From a virus, in IMG/VR virus record IMGVR_UViG_3300030107_002523, positions 1 through 23,901 of that record: DNA of 23,901 bases; one strand, 5' to 3'. Shown one piece after another: positions 8,335 through 23,779 of this stretch. The notes beneath the pieces were generated by a model that was not told the DNA's origin, made no database searches, and worked only from the letters and a program-made list of their open reading frames with translations. Each line of letters opens with the position of its first letter. Within the stretch, counting starts at the first letter, position 1. Made by a program: the position numbers and the translations under genes.

Positions 8335-8880
8335 TTAAACTAACCTATAATCTTCAGTATAATAATACTTCACATAATTTCTAATTTCAGAAGTACTTGA
8401 TATTTTCTTATAATTAGGTTCCATATATTCCAAAATTAACTTCTGTCCTACTTCATTGTAAATATAATTCTTATCCAATTCTTTTACTACAAAATCCATA
8501 TCTAATACCTGTCCCATCCAATCACCAAAATTATCACCAAACCCATCTTCAAAATTCCAAAGACAAGTTTCTTCACTAATATAATCCAATTGTTTTTTAT
8601 ACCATCCTTTAGAATAGAATGGATGAGAACTTAAAGACAAATATCTTTCTAAAGGATCTCTTATCACTGCAATATGAGGAATATTTTTTACATCTAAATG
8701 TTTCTCATATAATTCTCTAGTGAAATGAGTAATTTCTGTATCCTCAATCTCTTTCCATATATCTTGTTCTGGTTCAAATCCATTCAACATTATATTCTCT
8801 TGAATAAATCTACCAGCAGTTTTAGGAATATGAATGAAAAGAAATCTCTTTCCAGTTTCTTTATGACGATAAGTAGGCAT
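8335..8880 (-). CDS. Sulfotransferase family protein (181 aa)
   Basis: The N-terminal FIHIPKTAG (residues 15-23) matches the 5'-phosphosulfate-binding loop of PAPS-dependent carbohydrate/protein sulfotransferases (P-loop-like 'HIPKTAGT' class). Residues 72-85, VIRDPLERYLSLSS, match the 3'-phosphate-binding 'RdP.eR..S' motif, with R74 and a nearby serine as expected ligands. The C-terminal YYTEDYRLV resembles the usual 'y..Dy.l' ending, so the protein is probably complete although short for the family. One difference is Arg in place of Thr after KTAG. The expected reaction is transfer of sulfate from PAPS to a hydroxyl of a glycan, lipid or tyrosine; the acceptor is unknown. Its ATG overlaps the stop of the upstream dioxygenase by one base (TAATG), so the two are probably co-translated and may act in one pathway. 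Confidence 0.85.
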   Translation of the reverse strand: MPTYRHKETGKRFLFIHIPKTAGRFIQENIMLNGFEPEQDIWKEIEDTEITHFTRELYEKHLDVKNIPHIAVIRDPLERYLSLSSHPFYSKGWYKKQLDYISEETCLWNFEDGFGDNFGDWMGQVLDMDFVVKELDKNYIYNEVGQKLILEYMEPNYKKISSTSEIRNYVKYYYTEDYRLV

Positions 8881-9467
8881 TAGATTGATTTATTAAACCA
8901 AAAAGATAGAACATATCTGGTACCAGACTCAACTTCACTCACATGATGAAGATATTCTCTATTAGAAAAAATTAATAACTTTCCTGCTTTCGGTTTTACA
9001 TCATACCATACTTTATCATCTAAAGTATCGAATTGAGTATGTCCTCCAACATAGTCATCATTTAAATAAAGAAAAGATGCAAGAACATTGGGACTAAACA
9101 TTTCAGATTTATCATAATGTGGTTTCATAAAAGTTCCTTTTGGCCATCTTATGACACCACAATAATCTAATTGTATATCCTTATGAAATGTTTTACAAAG
9201 TTGAGTTACCTTCTTAATTACGTTAGCAAAAAGTTCATTAGATGTCAATTTAATATCGATAGGAGATACATCTCCACCCAAATAGATTGCACCATAATCA
9301 CCATCAGGTTCTGGTATATCAGGACCATAACTCAAACTTTCATCAGAATTTGAATGAGTAACTGCTTCTAAGAATGTATCCTCCTTTTGATCTCCATGAA
9401 GATTGATAAATGGTTTACACAAAGAAGGATTTAAAAATTCCTCTTCAACATAAATTAATTTTTTCAT
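8880..9467 (-). CDS. 2-oxoglutarate/Fe(II)-dependent dioxygenase, prolyl-4-hydroxylase type (copy 2, 195 aa)
   Basis: The protein carries the iron-binding HxD of the double-stranded beta-helix fold (MKPHYDKS; H117, D119). The distal histidine lies in LHHVSEVESGTRYVLSFWF (H175 preferred over H174), and R184 is nine residues later, as expected for binding the 2-oxoglutarate carboxylate. ASFLYLNDDYVGGHTQF and PKAGKLLIFSN are typical core strands of phage and bacterial 2OG-Fe(II) oxygenases. It is a clear paralogue of the next gene upstream: both start MKKLIY-EE and share the RWP-GTFMKPH core. It has a longer insertion at residues 30-75 that may set substrate choice. The start codon overlaps the stop of the other copy by four bases (ATGA). 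Reaction: hydroxylation of an unknown substrate, with peptidyl proline or another residue the family precedent. Confidence 0.88.
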   Translation of the reverse strand: MKKLIYVEEEFLNPSLCKPFINLHGDQKEDTFLEAVTHSNSDESLSYGPDIPEPDGDYGAIYLGGDVSPIDIKLTSNELFANVIKKVTQLCKTFHKDIQLDYCGVIRWPKGTFMKPHYDKSEMFSPNVLASFLYLNDDYVGGHTQFDTLDDKVWYDVKPKAGKLLIFSNREYLHHVSEVESGTRYVLSFWFNKSI

Positions 9468-9961
9468 TTTTGATTATACCAAATACTAAGAGCAAATCTT
9501 TCTCCACCTTCAACCTGAGTAACATGATGTTTATAGATTGAATTAGAAAATACAAGTAGTTTTCCTTTTTCTGGTTTTATTTCATGTTCTTCAAATCCAG
9601 TATAACCACCAGTAAAATCATCATTCAAATAAAGAACTGCTGCAAATAAATCAGGATCTTGTCCTGGTCTTGATGGATCAATATGGGGTTTCATAAAAGT
9701 ACCCTCTGGCCATCTAACAACAGAAGCATAATCAATAATAACCCTATCATCAAAGGTTTTACAAAGATTTGTTACTTTATCAACTACATTATTCTCTTGT
9801 GAATCAAAATAAATCCCATCTAAGGTAGTAAGAAAAGTATTACCACCCCTACCTGGATTTCCATAAGGAATTTCTTCTTTATTATCTTTAGAAAGTTTAA
9901 TTAAATCATCACACTCTTGAGGAGAAATAAAATTCTCCTCAAAGTAAATCAATTTTTTCAT
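9464..9961 (-). CDS. 2-oxoglutarate/Fe(II)-dependent dioxygenase, prolyl-4-hydroxylase type (copy 1, 165 aa)
   Basis: All expected ligands are visible: H93 and D95 (MKPHIDPS), the distal histidine H146 in KHHVTQVEGGERFALSIWY, and R155 for 2-oxoglutarate. The core strands AAVLYLNDDFTGGYTGFE and PEKGKLLVFSN match the family. At 165 residues it is essentially a minimal single-domain enzyme. It is the first gene of a tightly packed trio (dioxygenase, dioxygenase, sulfotransferase) with 4-base and 1-base overlaps. It starts six bases after the stop of the fibre-like 333-residue gene, without an obvious ribosome-binding site, so it probably relies on translational coupling. Many marine T4-like phages carry such enzymes; their substrates are largely unknown. 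A fibre protein encoded alongside is one possible target. Confidence 0.88.
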   Translation of the reverse strand: MKKLIYFEENFISPQECDDLIKLSKDNKEEIPYGNPGRGGNTFLTTLDGIYFDSQENNVVDKVTNLCKTFDDRVIIDYASVVRWPEGTFMKPHIDPSRPGQDPDLFAAVLYLNDDFTGGYTGFEEHEIKPEKGKLLVFSNSIYKHHVTQVEGGERFALSIWYNQK

Positions 9962-17052: not shown

Positions 17053-19664
17053 TATGCTGCACCTGCACGTAAATGTTGAGTATCATTACTATTTACTCCA
17101 GAACTACTACCACTAGAACCAGAATTAACTGGAATAACTTGTGTTTTTCCAGATTTTTCCATAATAACTGGTTGTATCATAGTTACAACCTCACCTTCAT
17201 CATCATAAGAAGGATATTCACTTATATTATTAGACTTTAAAGAAACATCATTTTTAGGTTTAATACCATCAAAATCAAGCAAACTTTGTGCATACTTACT
17301 ACCACCCTCTGCTGCTTTTATTAATTTATCATTTCTATCTTTTACTTGTTTGGGTGTAAGTAAAACCCATTGATCACCAACTTGAGTCCAAGTTCCTCCT
17401 TTAGCCTCAGGATTATTTTTAATATATTCTTGCATTTCAGAATAATTATTTACTCTTGGCTGATCAATAGGATAATACTCAGAAAATCCAAGTCCTCTTC
17501 TAGATCTAGAAGGTCTTTGCATCTCTTTACCCCACCTTCTATCTCTTCCACCAGACAAAGGATTGACTTGTAAAATTCCTCTTCCCCTCTTATCAAAATC
17601 AGTTAATCCTCCTGTCATTGCATCGGTTATACCACCCATCATCCTAAGAAGTCCCCAATCCTTTGGACTTCCTGTAGGATTTTGCTTATCAAAATCAAAA
17701 GTACCTAATGTTGCAAAATCCAATGCTCCACCAATACCTCTCTTGATTCCCATTCCAGATTGTTTTTCTCCTCTCTTTGCTTGCTCATTACTAGAACCCC
17801 ATGCTTTATCCTTACCACCAAACATAGGATCAAATTGCAAGTTACCTTTACCCCTCTTATCAAAATCAGTAATTCCCATTGTTGCCCAATCTGCAACTCC
17901 TCCTGCAATTCTTCTTATGCCATAATCTTTTGGTGCTCCCTTGCGATTTTGCTTATCAAAATCAAACATGCCAAATGTAGCAAAATCTAATGCTCCACCA
18001 ATACCACGTTTAATTCCCATTCCAGATTGTTTTTCTCCTCTCTTTGCCTGTTCATCAGCAACACCCCATCTCTTATCTTTACCACCACTTATAGGATCAA
18101 ATTGCATATTACCTCGACCCCTCTTATCAAAATCAGTAAGACCCAATGTCATACTATCAGCAAGTCCACCTGCAATTCTTCTTATACCCCAATCTTTAGG
18201 ACTTCCCTTACGATTGTGTTTATCAAAATCAAACATACCAAATGTAGCCATATCAAGAGAAGATCTCCAACCTAAGAATCCACGATTTCCTTCCGTATTC
18301 GCAGTACCATCTTGTTCACTCTTTGTTTTACCATCCTTGGTATATCCCATTTTATCTGTTGCTGCATCTCCATAAAGACTACCCCACGAACCTTCATCAT
18401 CATTAATCACTCCGAGAAAATCAAACATATTAAGAGCTTTACGGAATTGTTCTCTAATTCTGGCATCATATTTTTCCAAATTAGTTCTTTGCTTCTCTTT
18501 ATCTTCTTTACTTAAGAAAGGAAAACGAATTAACTCAATAATCATTCTAAAAGGAGCACCAACAATATCCAATATACCCCCTATCAAACTCCAACCACGA
18601 TTAAGTAGTCCCATTAAACCAGCAGATATTCCCCACCAATATTTTCTAGGATCTGTCCACCACTTCTTATCAGCTTTTTGTCTCCAATCTTTCTCTATAT
18701 TATAACCTTTTTTACCAAGTTGAAATATACCTTCACCAAGACCAGATGCAAGGAGTCCAGCACCTGCCACGATACCAGCAGCTGCACCTGCTCCTATACC
18801 TGCTGCACTTCCTCCTGCTGTTCCACCTGCTGTTCCTCCTGCTGTTCCAGCTACTTGTGATGCTGTTGCTGCTAATCTAGCTTTAGCAAAAACACCTGCC
18901 ATTATTGCAAACCCTGTTCCAATAGCAGCTACACCCATTATCACATTTTTTAATACTCCTGAAAATTTATCAAATTGTTCAGCAGCTTTTTCACCAAATA
19001 GATTTTTTATAGCACCTCTTGTCCAATCATATGCTTTATATCCCCAATCAACAGCAGTTACCAATATATTAAGAGCAATTCCACCTAAGTAAACAACAAA
19101 ATCTAAAAAACGTGCTAGACCTTTAAGCAATGGCATCAATTTAGGTAACCAATCAATCAACCTTACAGCTAACCATCCAAAAAGAACAGTCATAAAATAT
19201 CTTTTTATTTGACCCCAAAAACTTGTAACTTGTTTAGGAAGAGGTAAATTAAATCTTTTTTTATCAAGTTTAGGAGCACCCTCTATTTCTTGCTCATCCT
19301 GTTTTCTTTCATCTTTTTCTTGCTGTTTTCGTTGATTCTTTTGTTGAGCCTTTTCTGCAGCAAGAGTTCCTTTTAATAACTTATCAATTTCTAAAACTTT
19401 TTCTTTAATAACCATTAAAGAACCAGACTTAGTTTGAGTTTCTGCTTTTGTAATAGAAGTTATTGGTGAAGATACTGGGACTATGTTACTCGAACCAGAC
19501 TTAACAATCGCACCTCCTTTTTCTTTATTATCACCACCACCCATTAATTTTTCAGCCTTTACCATTCCTACTTTAGGTTTTCCCTTCCTATTTAAAAGTT
19601 TCTTAGTAGCTACCTTTTTTACACCACTCTTTAATAAGGATTTTCCTAATGCTGCCCAAGCCAT
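17052..19664 (-). CDS. Second tape-measure-like protein with 89-residue DFDKR repeats (870 aa)
   Basis: Order of parts: a basic N-terminus with KKLLNRK (residues 21-27); a charged, probably coiled-coil segment at 86-128 (KQQEKDERKQDEQE type); hydrophobic helices at about 150-205, 236-262 and 345-385; a Gly/Ala/Thr stretch at 270-312 with TAGG repeats; two full and one partial 89-residue repeats at 470-712; and a soluble C-terminus with a Ser/Gly-rich tail. The KLLNRK start, the 'LF.-LVDW/LIDW' hydrophobic block and the DFDKR motif are shared with the preceding 827-residue protein, so the two are paralogues. Hydrophobic helices and internal repeats are typical of tail tape measure or hub-lumen proteins (T4 gp29 role). 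A single gp29 equivalent cannot be assigned between the two. Joined to the flanking genes by TAATG overlaps at both ends. Confidence 0.65.
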   Translation of the reverse strand: MAWAALGKSLLKSGVKKVATKKLLNRKGKPKVGMVKAEKLMGGGDNKEKGGAIVKSGSSNIVPVSSPITSITKAETQTKSGSLMVIKEKVLEIDKLLKGTLAAEKAQQKNQRKQQEKDERKQDEQEIEGAPKLDKKRFNLPLPKQVTSFWGQIKRYFMTVLFGWLAVRLIDWLPKLMPLLKGLARFLDFVVYLGGIALNILVTAVDWGYKAYDWTRGAIKNLFGEKAAEQFDKFSGVLKNVIMGVAAIGTGFAIMAGVFAKARLAATASQVAGTAGGTAGGTAGGSAAGIGAGAAAGIVAGAGLLASGLGEGIFQLGKKGYNIEKDWRQKADKKWWTDPRKYWWGISAGLMGLLNRGWSLIGGILDIVGAPFRMIIELIRFPFLSKEDKEKQRTNLEKYDARIREQFRKALNMFDFLGVINDDEGSWGSLYGDAATDKMGYTKDGKTKSEQDGTANTEGNRGFLGWRSSLDMATFGMFDFDKHNRKGSPKDWGIRRIAGGLADSMTLGLTDFDKRGRGNMQFDPISGGKDKRWGVADEQAKRGEKQSGMGIKRGIGGALDFATFGMFDFDKQNRKGAPKDYGIRRIAGGVADWATMGITDFDKRGKGNLQFDPMFGGKDKAWGSSNEQAKRGEKQSGMGIKRGIGGALDFATLGTFDFDKQNPTGSPKDWGLLRMMGGITDAMTGGLTDFDKRGRGILQVNPLSGGRDRRWGKEMQRPSRSRRGLGFSEYYPIDQPRVNNYSEMQEYIKNNPEAKGGTWTQVGDQWVLLTPKQVKDRNDKLIKAAEGGSKYAQSLLDFDGIKPKNDVSLKSNNISEYPSYDDEGEVVTMIQPVIMEKSGKTQVIPVNSGSSGSSSGVNSNDTQHLRAGAA
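17529..18257 (-). repeat. Tandem 89-codon (267 bp) coding repeats
   Basis: Unit 1 is 17991-18257, unit 2 is 17724-17990 and partial unit 3 is 17529-17723. The protein units are 89 residues each, and each carries two DFDK elements (one FDFDK, one TDFDKRG) 32 residues apart. DNA is highly similar: the stretch reading cccattccagattgtttttc occurs in both 17724-17990 and 17991-18257. Unit 3 is more diverged and stops after about 65 residues. Confidence 0.9.
18798..18851 (-). repeat. Short tandem repeat encoding TAGG units
   Basis: A 12-base unit (minus strand ACAGCAGGAGGA/ACAGCAGGTGGA type) is repeated in phase and encodes TAGG-TAGG-TAGG within a Gly/Ala linker between hydrophobic helices of the 870-residue protein. 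The unit length is a multiple of three, so copy number could vary without breaking the frame. Confidence 0.7.
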
Positions 19665-22147
19665 TATACACTAATCCCCAATACTCTTATTTTATCCACC
19701 GACCTCATTGCTATAGCACTAAATGTTGGAATCTTTTTATTTCCTCCTCCTGCTGGTGGAGTAGAAGGAGTAGAATCCGTCAATTGATCTTGATAAGCAA
19801 CTGTCACTTTTGGTTTCTTAGAAGATGGTGATATATCCAAATCCTTATCCTTTTTCATGGCATTCATATTAACCATTTTACTAGGATCACTACTTATTGG
19901 TCCTAATATACCACTACCACCACCTTTAGCACCACCTTTAGCACCACCTAATAATCCACCAACAGCACCAGCAGTTTTTCTTATCAATCCACCACCACTT
20001 CGTTTATCAAAGTCAAATAGATTACCTGTAAGTTGATCAGCAAGACCACCCATAGGACGGGCAAGAGCACCAGCAGTTTTTCTTATCAATCCACCACCAC
20101 TTCGTTTATCAAAGTCAAATAGATTTCCTGTAAGTTGATCAGCAGTACCACCAACAACACGTTTAATACCACCAAACAATCCACTACCTGTTTTAGTTTT
20201 TGATTCTGTAGGTGTTACTGTAGGTGTGGAAGTGGATTTCTGACTTGCTTGTATTTGTTTCGCAAGTTTATTCATTTCTTTCGAGAGTTGGTTCCATTTC
20301 TTCCTATCATTTCCCCTTATTTTACCATCAGGATCTCTCTCAATACGACTCCTCTCCAACTTTAATTTCTTATACTGATCTATTTGTGACTGAACAAGAC
20401 CACCACCTCGGAATCCTTGAACTAAACCACCACCCTTCATTTTAGCACTTGCAGATATACTAGCACCTAAATCATCCAGTTCAGCCTGTTCCTTGAGATC
20501 CCTTGCCATTCTTGCTACTGGATTTGAATCAAAATACGCTTGCTTCTGTTCTTCTGTTATTCTCTCCTCTCCTCCCTCAAAAATCATTTTAGAACCTCTT
20601 TGTTTCCATCTTGTCGTGGTTCTAGTCATGGTATCAAAATTCCAATCATCAGATGATTCTTCTGTTATTCCAGCACCATAAAATTCTTTACCCATTGGTT
20701 CTGTAAGTTCCACACCATCCGCATAAGATATTTTATCTAAAGGAGGCAATCCCAGAAATGCTCGTTCTTTATTAACCCAATAAAGAGTTTCCTCTTCTAT
20801 ACGTTTTTTCTTTTCTGGGTCAGTTACTGTACCCCTAGTATGTCCTAACTGTTCGCTCATAGTTTGAACCTTACCACCTGTTTTATATCTACCTAATGTT
20901 GGTCTATTAGTTCCACCAGCAGCAGCATTCATACCTGCAAGAGTATCAGCACCCCACTGATCAACAGCATCTCTACTCATCACAAACTCACCAGGAGTCA
21001 GCATAGCAGGAACTGTATCTTTATTAGCACCTCTTCCAGGAACTTTACCACCTTTATTAAATCCTTGACGACTATCATCCTTCCTAGTTTTTAAATCACC
21101 CTCTTCTTGAGATAAAGAAGAAGTTGAAGCTTCAACAGATTCTACTTGATTCTGTTTGTCTGTTGATATATTATCTCCTTTATCTTTATCCTTATTCACA
21201 ACTTTATTAACAATCGCACCAACTAGCATACCTCCTCCAAGAATTGCTAATGCTTTCCATCCCCACGGACCCATCATTTTTGCAGCCGTTATGAGAGCAG
21301 GAATAACAGTTGCTTTAAGAGTAATAGCAAATCCAATCAAACTAGATATTAATCCTGTCGCAAAACCAGCCAGACCTGTTCCAAATACAATATACGCACC
21401 CAATAAGAGTGGCCACCAATCCTTCAAAAATCTAAAAATACTTTTAACTTTATCTTGATTTGCTGGATTTCCAACCCAATCTACAAGTTTAAACAATACT
21501 CTTCCAAGAAATATTTTAGTAATAAATCCTAATATTTTACTCCAAATGTCGGCGAATGGACCAAGAACTTTACCTGCTATTTTTGAAACACCTTTCCATA
21601 CACCCTTTGCACCTTCTAGTAATTTTTCTTTTGATGCCCTTTTTGTCTTTTCCTTTTCTTTTCTTTGTTTCTCCGTCTTTTTCTTATTAAACTTTCTATC
21701 ACTTCTTAAGGTTTCAATTATAGAATTGAGACCATCAATAATAGGATTGAATGATTGATTATCCGAATCTTCTGTTTGTTTTTCTTCTTGTTTTAAATTA
21801 TCAAGTCTCTTTTCATTTGACAACACTCTACCACGAGTATCTCTCAAAATACGGGACAATTTACCAGTATTACTTTCTTTACCCTTTTCACCAACATCCT
21901 TTCTATTAAGAAGTTTGCTTGTAGATACCTTTTTCTTTACTATTTGCGATTTTGCCCTTCTATTATCTCTTACTCTTTTAACTTCTTTTTGTAGGATAGG
22001 TATTCTTCTATCACTTGGATTAGAAATTGTAAGTGAATTAGTAGCCTCCATCAATGCACGTAGATAATCCATATCACTATCCACGTCCATCAAATCAATA
22101 CCAAGATCTGATAGTATTTTTAAAATTGGTGGGCTAATAACTGCCAT
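19664..22147 (-). CDS. Tail tape measure protein-like (827 aa)
   Basis: The strongest clue is at residues 365-425: KGGKVPGRGANKDTVPAMLT, then PGEFVMSRDAVDQWGADTL and a later GGTNRP. This is the 'GG.vpG.g..D.vpAmLtPGEfVms..av...G...L' motif common in tape measure proteins of tailed phages. Before it lie a charged helical region (about 50-180, KKKTEKQRKEKEKTKR) and a long hydrophobic block (about 200-315) with several possible membrane helices, also typical. Residues 571-586 repeat KGGGLVQ/RGGGLVQ. Residues 666-733 hold two 34-residue repeats with LFDFDKRSGGGLIRKTAGA. It lies directly after the gp26-like and 58-residue genes, where a tape measure gene follows its chaperones in other phages. It overlaps the 58-residue gene by 14 bases. 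It probably sets tail length and may enter the host membrane. Confidence 0.75.
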   Translation of the reverse strand: MAVISPPILKILSDLGIDLMDVDSDMDYLRALMEATNSLTISNPSDRRIPILQKEVKRVRDNRRAKSQIVKKKVSTSKLLNRKDVGEKGKESNTGKLSRILRDTRGRVLSNEKRLDNLKQEEKQTEDSDNQSFNPIIDGLNSIIETLRSDRKFNKKKTEKQRKEKEKTKRASKEKLLEGAKGVWKGVSKIAGKVLGPFADIWSKILGFITKIFLGRVLFKLVDWVGNPANQDKVKSIFRFLKDWWPLLLGAYIVFGTGLAGFATGLISSLIGFAITLKATVIPALITAAKMMGPWGWKALAILGGGMLVGAIVNKVVNKDKDKGDNISTDKQNQVESVEASTSSLSQEEGDLKTRKDDSRQGFNKGGKVPGRGANKDTVPAMLTPGEFVMSRDAVDQWGADTLAGMNAAAGGTNRPTLGRYKTGGKVQTMSEQLGHTRGTVTDPEKKKRIEEETLYWVNKERAFLGLPPLDKISYADGVELTEPMGKEFYGAGITEESSDDWNFDTMTRTTTRWKQRGSKMIFEGGEERITEEQKQAYFDSNPVARMARDLKEQAELDDLGASISASAKMKGGGLVQGFRGGGLVQSQIDQYKKLKLERSRIERDPDGKIRGNDRKKWNQLSKEMNKLAKQIQASQKSTSTPTVTPTESKTKTGSGLFGGIKRVVGGTADQLTGNLFDFDKRSGGGLIRKTAGALARPMGGLADQLTGNLFDFDKRSGGGLIRKTAGAVGGLLGGAKGGAKGGGSGILGPISSDPSKMVNMNAMKKDKDLDISPSSKKPKVTVAYQDQLTDSTPSTPPAGGGNKKIPTFSAIAMRSVDKIRVLGISV
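19949..20152 (-). repeat. Two tandem 34-codon (102 bp) repeats
   Basis: Units at 20051-20152 and 19949-20050 are nearly identical in DNA over the stretch that encodes ADQLTGNLFDFDKRSGGGL. The protein unit (GG-ADQLTGNLFDFDKR, then a Gly-rich tail) matches the half-unit of the 89-residue repeats in the neighbouring 870-residue protein. This points to recombination or duplication between the two genes. Confidence 0.9.
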
Positions 22148-22310
22148 TACCTTGTTGTTGTTGCTTTAACTTTTCGTCTTCAAGATGTTGCTGAAGTAAA
22201 GATACATAGATGTCTCGTTCCCAAGGCATCATATTTTCTATCTCTGTCAAGCTATATTTATGGTACTGCATCAAGGCAAAATTAAGTCTGAAATAACTCT
22301 CCAGACTCAT
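22134..22310 (-). CDS. Small protein (58 aa) in -1 frame after gp26-like gene; candidate tail chaperone extension
   Basis: The protein begins MSLESYFRLNFALMQYHKYS and continues LTEIENMMPWERDIYVSLLQ, ending in a Gln-rich tail. It is helical and conserved-looking, not random. The pattern of a short hydrophobic helix, a 'YS..EI..M.WER..Y...L' helix and a charged tail resembles the T part of phage G/GT tail assembly chaperones. T4-type annotation often labels small genes here as gp51-like, but T4 gp51 is far longer, so I do not use that symbol. No ribosome-binding site precedes the ATG. The frame is open upstream of the ATG back to a slippery heptamer inside the end of the gp26-like gene. It may therefore be made mainly as a -1 frameshift fusion of about 302 residues. 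It overlaps the tape measure start by 14 bases. Confidence 0.75.
   Translation of the reverse strand: MSLESYFRLNFALMQYHKYSLTEIENMMPWERDIYVSLLQQHLEDEKLKQQQQGNGSY
22283..22309 (-). other. Hairpin downstream of slippery site
   Basis: On the minus strand TGAGTCTG (22302-22309) can pair with CAGACTTA (22283-22290), eight pairs including one G-U, around an 11-base loop. It begins 18 bases after the slippery heptamer, further than the usual 5-9 bases, so any stimulating role is uncertain. It may also limit starts at the ATG 22310, which lies at its foot. Confidence 0.4.
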
Positions 22311-22321
22311 ATGCAGTAGGG

Positions 22322-23041
22322 CTATGCGAAAAAACTTGCCAGTCCCTCCAATACGATATCACTTTCAACCTTTGTTTTAGGATTAGTAACCTTAACAGTA
22401 TGAGATAATTTAGGCATAGTTTCAAAAAACTTTTCAATCTCTTTGAATTGAGAAGAATTCATTTGTTCTAAGAAATCTTTCATTTCTTTCTTAGTACAAT
22501 CAGCAGAAGCCCATACTTCATCTTCAGTATAAATTTTATCAATACAAGATGCAATTAAATCAAAAGATTGTTCCATTTGATTTCCTTCTTTAAAATCAAA
22601 GTTATTCTTAATAAATTCATCTAAAGATGGATATTTTAACTCCATCATTATGTTAGAATCAATCTTTATTTTATTTGAATGATCCTCACTCTTCTCAACC
22701 TTAATTTCATCCAAATTAATTGTAACTGGAACTTCAGTTGTTTCATCATCAGGACATATAATATTAACTTCAAGTTCTTCTCCAACAGATTTTCCACGAA
22801 TATTTAAAAATAGATATTCAATATCAAAAGTAGGAAGTCTTTCTACTTTGATTCCTTTAGTAATAATACAATTCTTAAGAACGGCTTTGATTGCAGTTGT
22901 AATCTGTTTATTATCTTCACTTTCTAAAGCAATTACAAGAACCTTTTCTTCTTTTACGAGAAATGGTCTATATTGTATAGATGCTCCTGTCGAGGGTAAC
23001 TCCAACTCATAGGTCGGAGTTGCAATTTTTGGTAAAGGCAT
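22322..23041 (-). CDS. gp26-like baseplate hub assembly protein, candidate G-type tail chaperone (239 aa)
   Basis: The start MPLPKIATPTYELELPSTGA followed by YRPFLVKEEKVLVIALES is what I recognise for T4 gp26-type baseplate proteins of marine T4-like phages. Length is close to T4 gp26 (208). The middle is beta (EVNIICPDDETTEVPVTINL). The C-terminal half is helical and acidic (DLIASCIDKIYTEDEVW, then FLEQMNSSQFKEIEKFFETM), a pattern like tail assembly chaperones. T4 gp26 is needed for hub assembly; its presence in the virion has long been unclear. AGGA lies four bases before the ATG and a perfect late promoter 23 bases before it. The end of the gene holds a phased slippery heptamer, so a fraction of ribosomes may extend it into the next frame. 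Confidence 0.8.
   Translation of the reverse strand: MPLPKIATPTYELELPSTGASIQYRPFLVKEEKVLVIALESEDNKQITTAIKAVLKNCIITKGIKVERLPTFDIEYLFLNIRGKSVGEELEVNIICPDDETTEVPVTINLDEIKVEKSEDHSNKIKIDSNIMMELKYPSLDEFIKNNFDFKEGNQMEQSFDLIASCIDKIYTEDEVWASADCTKKEMKDFLEQMNSSQFKEIEKFFETMPKLSHTVKVTNPKTKVESDIVLEGLASFFA
22328..22334 (-). promoter_or_regulatory. Slippery heptamer T TTT TTC for predicted -1 frameshift
   Basis: The minus strand reads AGT TTT TTC GCA TAG at the end of the gp26-like gene. TTTTTTC is thus in the X XXY YYZ phase, with zero-frame codons TTT and TTC. A -1 slip continues CGC ATA GCC CTA CTG CAT and then enters the ATG of the 58-residue gene in its own frame, with no stop in between. The zero-frame stop is two codons after the heptamer. 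Confidence 0.65.
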
Positions 23042-23083: not shown

Positions 23084-23779
23084 TTAAGAGTTATTAATCT
23101 CTGCACTTAGATTTTCTATGTAATATCGAATATAAGTGAAGGAAACCGTACATTTTAACACGGAAGATGAATCATATGCAACAGGCATTGATGATATTGC
23201 TATTGGATATGCATTTACAAATTTATAAGTTAAATTATTTTTACCATCTTGCGGTTTTAATGGATCTTTTGCTCTTGAAGGATCAGATGGATCAGGAACA
23301 CTTTGTATATCATAATGACGTGCATCCCTTTCAAACTTTCTAACTGTTAATCCTGTTGACATATAGTTTTCAGGATATTGCATTCTATAAAAATAATTAC
23401 TCTCAATCAATTGATTTTGATCATCTGTTGATGCCCCAGTAATATAATCTATCCATTCTTCAAAATACTTAATGGAGCTATACATTCCTCCATCAACATT
23501 AAATGTTAAATCAATTCTATCATCAAATATTCTTCTATGAGCAAATCTTTCTGTAACACCAGTGCGATCATTGTTAGTTTCAAATGTAGCTAAATTAGAT
23601 CCTGGCAAAACTGCTTCTGAACACAATAAATTAATTGCGTCAGTTCTCTTATTTTGATTCCATTTTGTAGTCCAAGCGGAACCTCCTGGAGGTGTAGGAA
23701 TCTCAACTTCAAAATAAGACGTAAGAGAGGGTCTTAAAAACTTTGATTTAATGTCAGCTACTGTAACTCTACTTGGCAT
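23084..23779 (-). CDS. T4 gp19-fold tail tube or tube-initiator protein (231 aa)
   Basis: The order of segments matches the T4 tail tube fold. F-RP-L-SYFEVEI (cf. FARPNLFQVEI in T4 gp19) is at about 14-27, LLCSEAVLPGSNL at 51-63, HRRIFDDRIDLTFNVD at about 81-96, a 'YFEEWIDYI' helix at about 105-113, TGLTVRKFERD at about 142-152, and FVNAYPIAISSMPVAYDSSS with a final CTVSFTYIRYYIE strand. It is longer than gp19 (163) because of extra loops. It could be the tube protein itself, a gp54/gp48-type tube initiator at the baseplate, or a gp19 paralogue. The place next to hub genes and away from a sheath gene favours a baseplate tube-initiator. No clear ribosome-binding site precedes the ATG. Confidence 0.72.
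   Translation of the reverse strand: MPSRVTVADIKSKFLRPSLTSYFEVEIPTPPGGSAWTTKWNQNKRTDAINLLCSEAVLPGSNLATFETNNDRTGVTERFAHRRIFDDRIDLTFNVDGGMYSSIKYFEEWIDYITGASTDDQNQLIESNYFYRMQYPENYMSTGLTVRKFERDARHYDIQSVPDPSDPSRAKDPLKPQDGKNNLTYKFVNAYPIAISSMPVAYDSSSVLKCTVSFTYIRYYIENLSAEINNS

Follow-up and report, generated by a model that had tools for sequence, protein, structure and literature searches.

In phage lambda the genes for the tail assembly chaperones (TAC) gpG and gpGT lie between those for the tail tube and the tape measure protein, and a slip near the end of the first open reading frame (ORF) yields a short form and a form extended in the -1 frame. Such frameshifting is reportedly conserved in several groups of T4-like phages, and T4 itself is said to use genes 26 and 51. 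Among long-tailed phages, in which the G-T frameshift is conserved, a 2016 review names T4 as the exception (PMC5009743). According to the papers in which it is cited (PMC10885494, PMC12846349), the study of Vladimirov, Gautam & Davidson 2022 (Virology 566:9-15, PMID 34826709) identified 26/51 as tail assembly chaperones of T4-like phages. Citing the same study, PMC10885494 describes some T4-like phages as having a short gene alongside a separate fused long gene, and PMC12846349 refers to poly-T slip signals as known from the TAC-N genes of T4-like phages. Here, we have analyzed the gp26/gp51 locus in the IMG/VR record IMGVR_UViG_3300030107_002523, positions 1 to 23,901 (in the following the window, that is the whole stretch of 23,901 nucleotides with its 18 genes). 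We conclude that this locus very probably makes a TAC-N/TAC-NC pair by programmed -1 ribosomal frameshifting. An earlier note on this DNA had suggested that the arrangement may be undescribed for T4-type phages. This does not hold, since 26/51 had already been identified as tail assembly chaperones of T4-like phages in 2022, and as far as that study is cited in the later papers the core idea is already known in principle. With the central idea published, the added value lies in the confirmation at scale and in the stimulators; new here are the scale, the argument from missing start codons and the stimulator candidates.

At the junction the minus strand reads TTG GAG GGA CTG GCA AGT, then the two Phe codons TTT TTC, then GCA TAG and, past the stop, CCC TAC TGC ATA TGA GTC TGG. 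Read in the gp26 frame, the heptamer T TTT TTC (22334-22328) has X XXY YYZ phase, and a single sense codon, GCA, separates it from the TAG stop. The elements of the locus and its two flanking genes, all on the minus strand, are as follows.

22322..23041, minus: gp26-family gene, 239 aa, predicted short chaperone form (TAC-N, G-like); PF12322 E 9e-76, phrog_150 E 1e-80, AlphaFold pLDDT 88.8
22344..22349, minus: internal Shine-Dalgarno-like (SD-like) GGAGGG, predicted stimulator, 9 nt 5' of the heptamer; motif and codon-choice tests
22328..22334, minus: slippery heptamer T TTT TTC; phase and conservation
22322..22324, minus: gp26 0-frame stop TAG, one codon past the heptamer
22283..22309, minus: downstream hairpin with an 11-bp stem, predicted stimulator, overlapping the ATG of the small ORF; folding and compensatory changes in relatives
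22134..22328, minus: -1 frame extension of 64 residues, starting RIALLHMSLESYF, predicted C-terminal part of TAC-NC (GT-like)
22134..22310, minus: gp51-like ORF, 58 codons, the usual annotation from the internal ATG; phrog_634 E 2e-27
19664..22147, minus: probable tape measure protein, 827 aa; position, overlap with gp51 and weak, partial tape-measure PHROG matches
23084..23779, minus: tail tube protein gene, 5' of gp26; PF23849 E 1e-16, phrog_45 E 8e-38

The -1 frame is open from the heptamer to the stop at 22134, and translation through the slip gives GLASFF followed by RIALLHMSLESY, in total 302 residues (238 + 64). Two tryptic peptides that span the junction and are specific for the fusion, VESDIVLEGLASFFR and IALLHMSLESYFR, are predicted here. 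Across the 18 genes of the window, no other in-phase heptamer of the T6/A6 type falls within the final 12 codons. The small ORF (22134-22310), which matches gp51, the 'baseplate hub assembly catalyst' of phrog_634, begins with an ATG that is not preceded by a Shine-Dalgarno sequence, and the next ORF starts at 22147, resulting in a 14-base overlap. The heptamer with its phase, the fusion of roughly 302 residues and the ATG devoid of a ribosome-binding site had all been put forward in the earlier note and are borne out on the minus-strand sequence. A further match of the small ORF is to positions 243-281, at the end of phrog_150, which hints that fused members of this family exist.

Loci were gathered from IMG/VR with six protein queries, to which 18 annotated phage regions were added; the counted set comprises 306 distinct loci that contain gp26 and its stop. 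In 298 of them an in-phase T TTT TTY lies close to the end of gp26, with gp51 following in the -1 frame. Named phages with the site are S-SM2, P-SSM2, P-SSM4, S-PM2, S-CRM01 and the KVP40-type phi-pp2, and furthermore Aeromonas AS-yj, Stenotrophomonas Ps15, Sinorhizobium phiM19 and Rhizobium IC12. The remaining eight loci include two in which the heptamer is present and the contig ends before gp51 becomes readable (L212, L230), one with an upstream indel and an intact slip site (L121), and the T4-type genomes of T2 and Aeromonas phage 25 (L163, L174). On a 236-kb contig (L231:1201-2094) gp26 and gp51 are fused in frame, with two bases missing in the slip region, which reflects either a true loss of the recoding or a faulty assembly. 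In the Ackermannviridae phage Guerrero (L171, 3200-3410) and Vibrio phage K445 (L169, 3040-3300) the gp51-like frame also lies at -1, and A ATT TTC or CTTTTC stands in place of the canonical heptamer. The earlier note had proposed to test the heptamer, its phase and the open -1 frame for conservation at synonymous sites, and in about 300 relatives this conservation is seen. A gp51 in another frame, a stop ahead of the ATG or loss of the T run, any of which would speak against frameshifting, occurs in none of the marine and cyanophage relatives except L231.

The synonymous sites were analyzed in 211 representatives with <90% identity. The first Phe codon of the slip site is TTT in 211/211, while TTT makes up 35-91% at other conserved Phe columns, and the codon 5' of the Phe pair ends in T in all 211; the corresponding probabilities (log10 P -31 under codon usage and log10 P -48) ignore phylogenetic dependence and serve as effect sizes. 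The preceding position is occupied by any of eight codons (AGT, TCT, GAT, GCT, AAT, ACT, GGT and CAT). The second Phe codon is TTC in 194 and TTT in 17 representatives. Since the site is conserved in 298/306 loci and its first Phe codon is invariant, we regard it as settled, on these comparisons, that the slip site at the end of gp26 is not due to chance. The -1 frame is also conserved between the slip and the ATG, with Arg at codon 1 in 176/211 and His at codon 6 in 191/211.

Start codons are missing in many relatives. Within the first 16 codons after the slip there is no ATG in 86/298 loci (54/211 representatives), and neither ATG, GTG nor TTG in 48/298 loci (33/211 representatives). Where the -1 frame has an ATG, it is preceded by an SD-like motif in 2/157 only. 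Because of the missing starts, frameshifting is the only evident route to a gp51 product in those relatives. These counts bear on the possibility that gp51 is a separate small protein made by termination-reinitiation at a nearby ATG, with the SD-like GAGG holding the ribosomes. The window is compatible with such a restart, as its ATG lies 11 nt past the gp26 stop; some Vibrio phages have an overlapping TAATG, and SD sequences near gene ends may aid coupled restarts (PMC5009743). However, 33 representatives are devoid of any of the three start codons in the first 16 codons, and in T4 gp51 both domains reside in one chain. Reinitiation also leaves unexplained why T TTT TTY is invariant, why the codon 5' of it always ends in T and why the -1 residues ahead of the ATG are conserved. 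We therefore consider reinitiation very unlikely.

The internal GGAGGG/GAGG and the downstream hairpin are probable stimulators. Upstream, the Glu of a conserved Leu-Glu-Gly-Leu is encoded by GAG in 152 and by GAA in 34 cases, whereas 68% of Glu codons in gp26 overall are GAA and other Glu-Gly pairs show a GAG:GAA ratio of 16:59 (Fisher 5e-20 versus the slip-adjacent site). An SD-like core is found 5' of the slip in 201/211 representatives, compared to 17% of control windows. A resampling test against the anti-SD sequence gave a weak result (mean p 0.30), and the argument for the SD-like element is therefore based on codon choice and motif tests. Downstream, 60-nt windows starting 5 nt 3' of the heptamer are more stable than shuffled sequences (mean z -1.77), while the same test at three upstream controls gave mean z values of -0.06 to -0.34. 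Folding all 211 downstream segments to one consensus gave no structure because the stems sit in different registers, and clade-wise counts were used instead. In P-SSM2-like phages an 11-bp stem at +6 has 85% of cells paired, compared to 24-47% in slid controls. The clade of the window has a 5-bp stem at +11 (84% paired) with changes on both sides in all five pairs, and the 11-bp stem of the window itself, at +19 (22309-22283, -13.1 kcal/mol for 60 nt), is 71% paired.

The same elements bear on transcriptional slippage, in which polymerase slips on the T run and mRNAs lacking one base or carrying two extra are read normally into the fusion. The T run is conserved at a length of 6-8, and homopolymer slippage is known in bacteria. 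However, the run is mostly only 6 T, compared to about 9 in known bacterial cases (PMC5009743), and this mechanism predicts neither an internal SD nor a structured downstream region, so that we judge it highly improbable. That the heptamer is a functionless by-product of a conserved Phe-Phe pair in an AT-rich genome is close to impossible, as the first Phe is TTT in 211/211 representatives at the slip site and TTC 133 : TTT 71 in a neighbouring conserved Phe-Phe pair, gp51 is always in the -1 frame and start codons are missing in some relatives. Reinitiation, transcriptional slippage and chance were each considered and rejected.

Several observations weigh against programmed frameshifting or parts of it, in addition to the nearby ATG of the window and the phylogenetic dependence of the relatives. 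The hairpin that the earlier note had suggested as a distant stimulator does fold with 11 bp, but it lies 18 nt from the heptamer, beyond the usual spacing of 3' stimulators, and its z score, for a single sequence, is modest (-1.22). The next gene had been named the tape measure; its 14-base overlap is exact, but the identity of the 827-aa ORF is suggested by weak, partial PHROG matches and by position. In a fold search of the PDB with the gp26 model, the HK97 tail assembly chaperone (2ob9) is represented by chains at ranks 2 and 5, with non-significant E values of 1.6 and 2.4.

For structure prediction the two parts of the fusion were modelled separately. The gp26 model is confident, and the -1 extension is predicted to form helices (pLDDT 83). 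Matches to the gp26 model in a viral structure library are baseplate proteins of the gp26 type, and single viral proteins that match both models are A0A8S0HX62, A0A6J7X6V4 and gp51 of Acinetobacter phage ZZ1. A sequence search against solved structures returned chance matches only, none of them significant.

Profile comparison relates both parts to T4. The gp26 family aligns with residues 5-201 of T4-type gp51 (prob 97, E 3.7e-11), and residues 205-251 are covered by the small ORF (prob 96, E 2e-9); T4 gp51 has 249 residues, the last ~47 of which are the counterpart of the small ORF. T4-type gp26 aligns with the gp26 family (hhalign prob 99, E 8e-21), and no alignment to the small ORF was obtained in this comparison. 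By these profile alignments T4 gene 51 is co-linear with the predicted fusion, just as T4 gene 26 is with the short form. T4 has two genes where this phage would use a frameshift, with the same gene families and the same TAC-N/TAC-NC logic as in the T4-like 26/51 systems of Vladimirov 2022, as far as these are described in the citing papers. It has been reported that gp51 of cyanophages and marine vibriophages lacks about 200 N-terminal residues (PMC3037559). As gp26 would supply ~200 N-terminal residues through the frameshift, the apparent shortening would be explained. T4 gp51 is required and yet absent from the particle (PMC3004832).

Similar to lambda gpG/gpGT, the locus has its predicted slip site shortly before the first ORF ends and, at the sequence level, a short and a -1 extended form with a common N-terminus. 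It is likewise placed between the tail tube gene and the 827-aa ORF, which is only weakly assigned as the tape measure. This position, together with the domain logic of T4 gp26/gp51, supports the G-like and GT-like reading of the earlier note. In contrast to lambda, the heptamer is T TTT TTY, the annotation is that of a baseplate hub and no match to a known TAC family was detected in Pfam. Internal SD, slippery heptamer and downstream stem-loop are also found in E. coli dnaX, a likeness in presence and conservation only; dnaX is a different gene with a different purpose and has an A-rich heptamer, while that of this phage is U-rich and its stimulators are predicted. The TAC genes of Vandenendeviridae and Andersonviridae share the poly-T slip near the end of TAC-N, the unbroken -1 frame and a downstream ORF that is usually annotated as a separate gene, but they have a GTTTTT motif and belong to other phage families (PMC12846349).

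We envisage that for the majority of ribosomes translation would end with the TAG, giving the 239-aa short form (gp26, TAC-N, G-like). Some would slip back one base on T TTT TTC, with two Phe-tRNAs on UUU UUC, aided by the internal SD-like GGAGGG 9 nt upstream and by the downstream hairpin, and would yield the 302-aa long form (TAC-NC, GT-like). In analogy to lambda, the tape measure protein, whose gene follows, would be coated by the short form. The long form, the rarer of the two, may use its helical C-terminal part to bring in tail tube or initiator proteins, and the two forms would depart before the virion is complete. Actual frameshifting, its efficiency, the roles of the stimulators and the chaperone function at the gp26/gp51 locus are what we infer from the sequences. 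We lean, with some reserve, towards the view that marine T4-type phages carry a tuned three-part cassette of internal Shine-Dalgarno, U UUU UUY and a hairpin that shifts in register between lineages and buries a vestigial gp51 start in many of them, that this cassette sets a defined ratio of short to long form, and that the T4 lineage substituted a separate full-length gene 51. By way of the internal SD and the hairpin it would become possible to test how a virus that infects marine cyanobacteria sets a protein ratio. With a frameshift at the gp26/gp51 locus, T4-type phages would no longer count as the exception to the G/GT rule.

The gp26 and gp51 ORFs are annotated as one joined gene in 0/18 of the annotated phage regions, and the data suggest that in many deposited genomes one recoded gene is annotated as two. 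In the public records of Aeromonas phage AS-yj (L166:3205-3373) and Synechococcus phage ACG-2014j (L179:3214-3393) the gp51 frame is unannotated, and neither has a start codon near the gp26/gp51 junction.

The closest named relatives by gp26 identity are the Synechococcus phages SynMITS9220M01 (84%) and S-SM2 (80%) and the marine single-cell virus AG-345-E15 (84%), and judged by these identities the window is a Kyanoviridae-like cyanophage fragment. Its tail/baseplate cluster (window 8335-9961, minus strand) also includes one sulfotransferase-like gene as well as two 2OG-Fe(II) oxygenase genes that lie side by side. The two large ORFs after gp51 harbor tandem repeats, one set of 267-nt units in about 3 copies (window 17529-18254) and one of 102-nt units in 2 copies that are 90% alike (window 19960-20163), and these units encode DFDKRG-type repeats.

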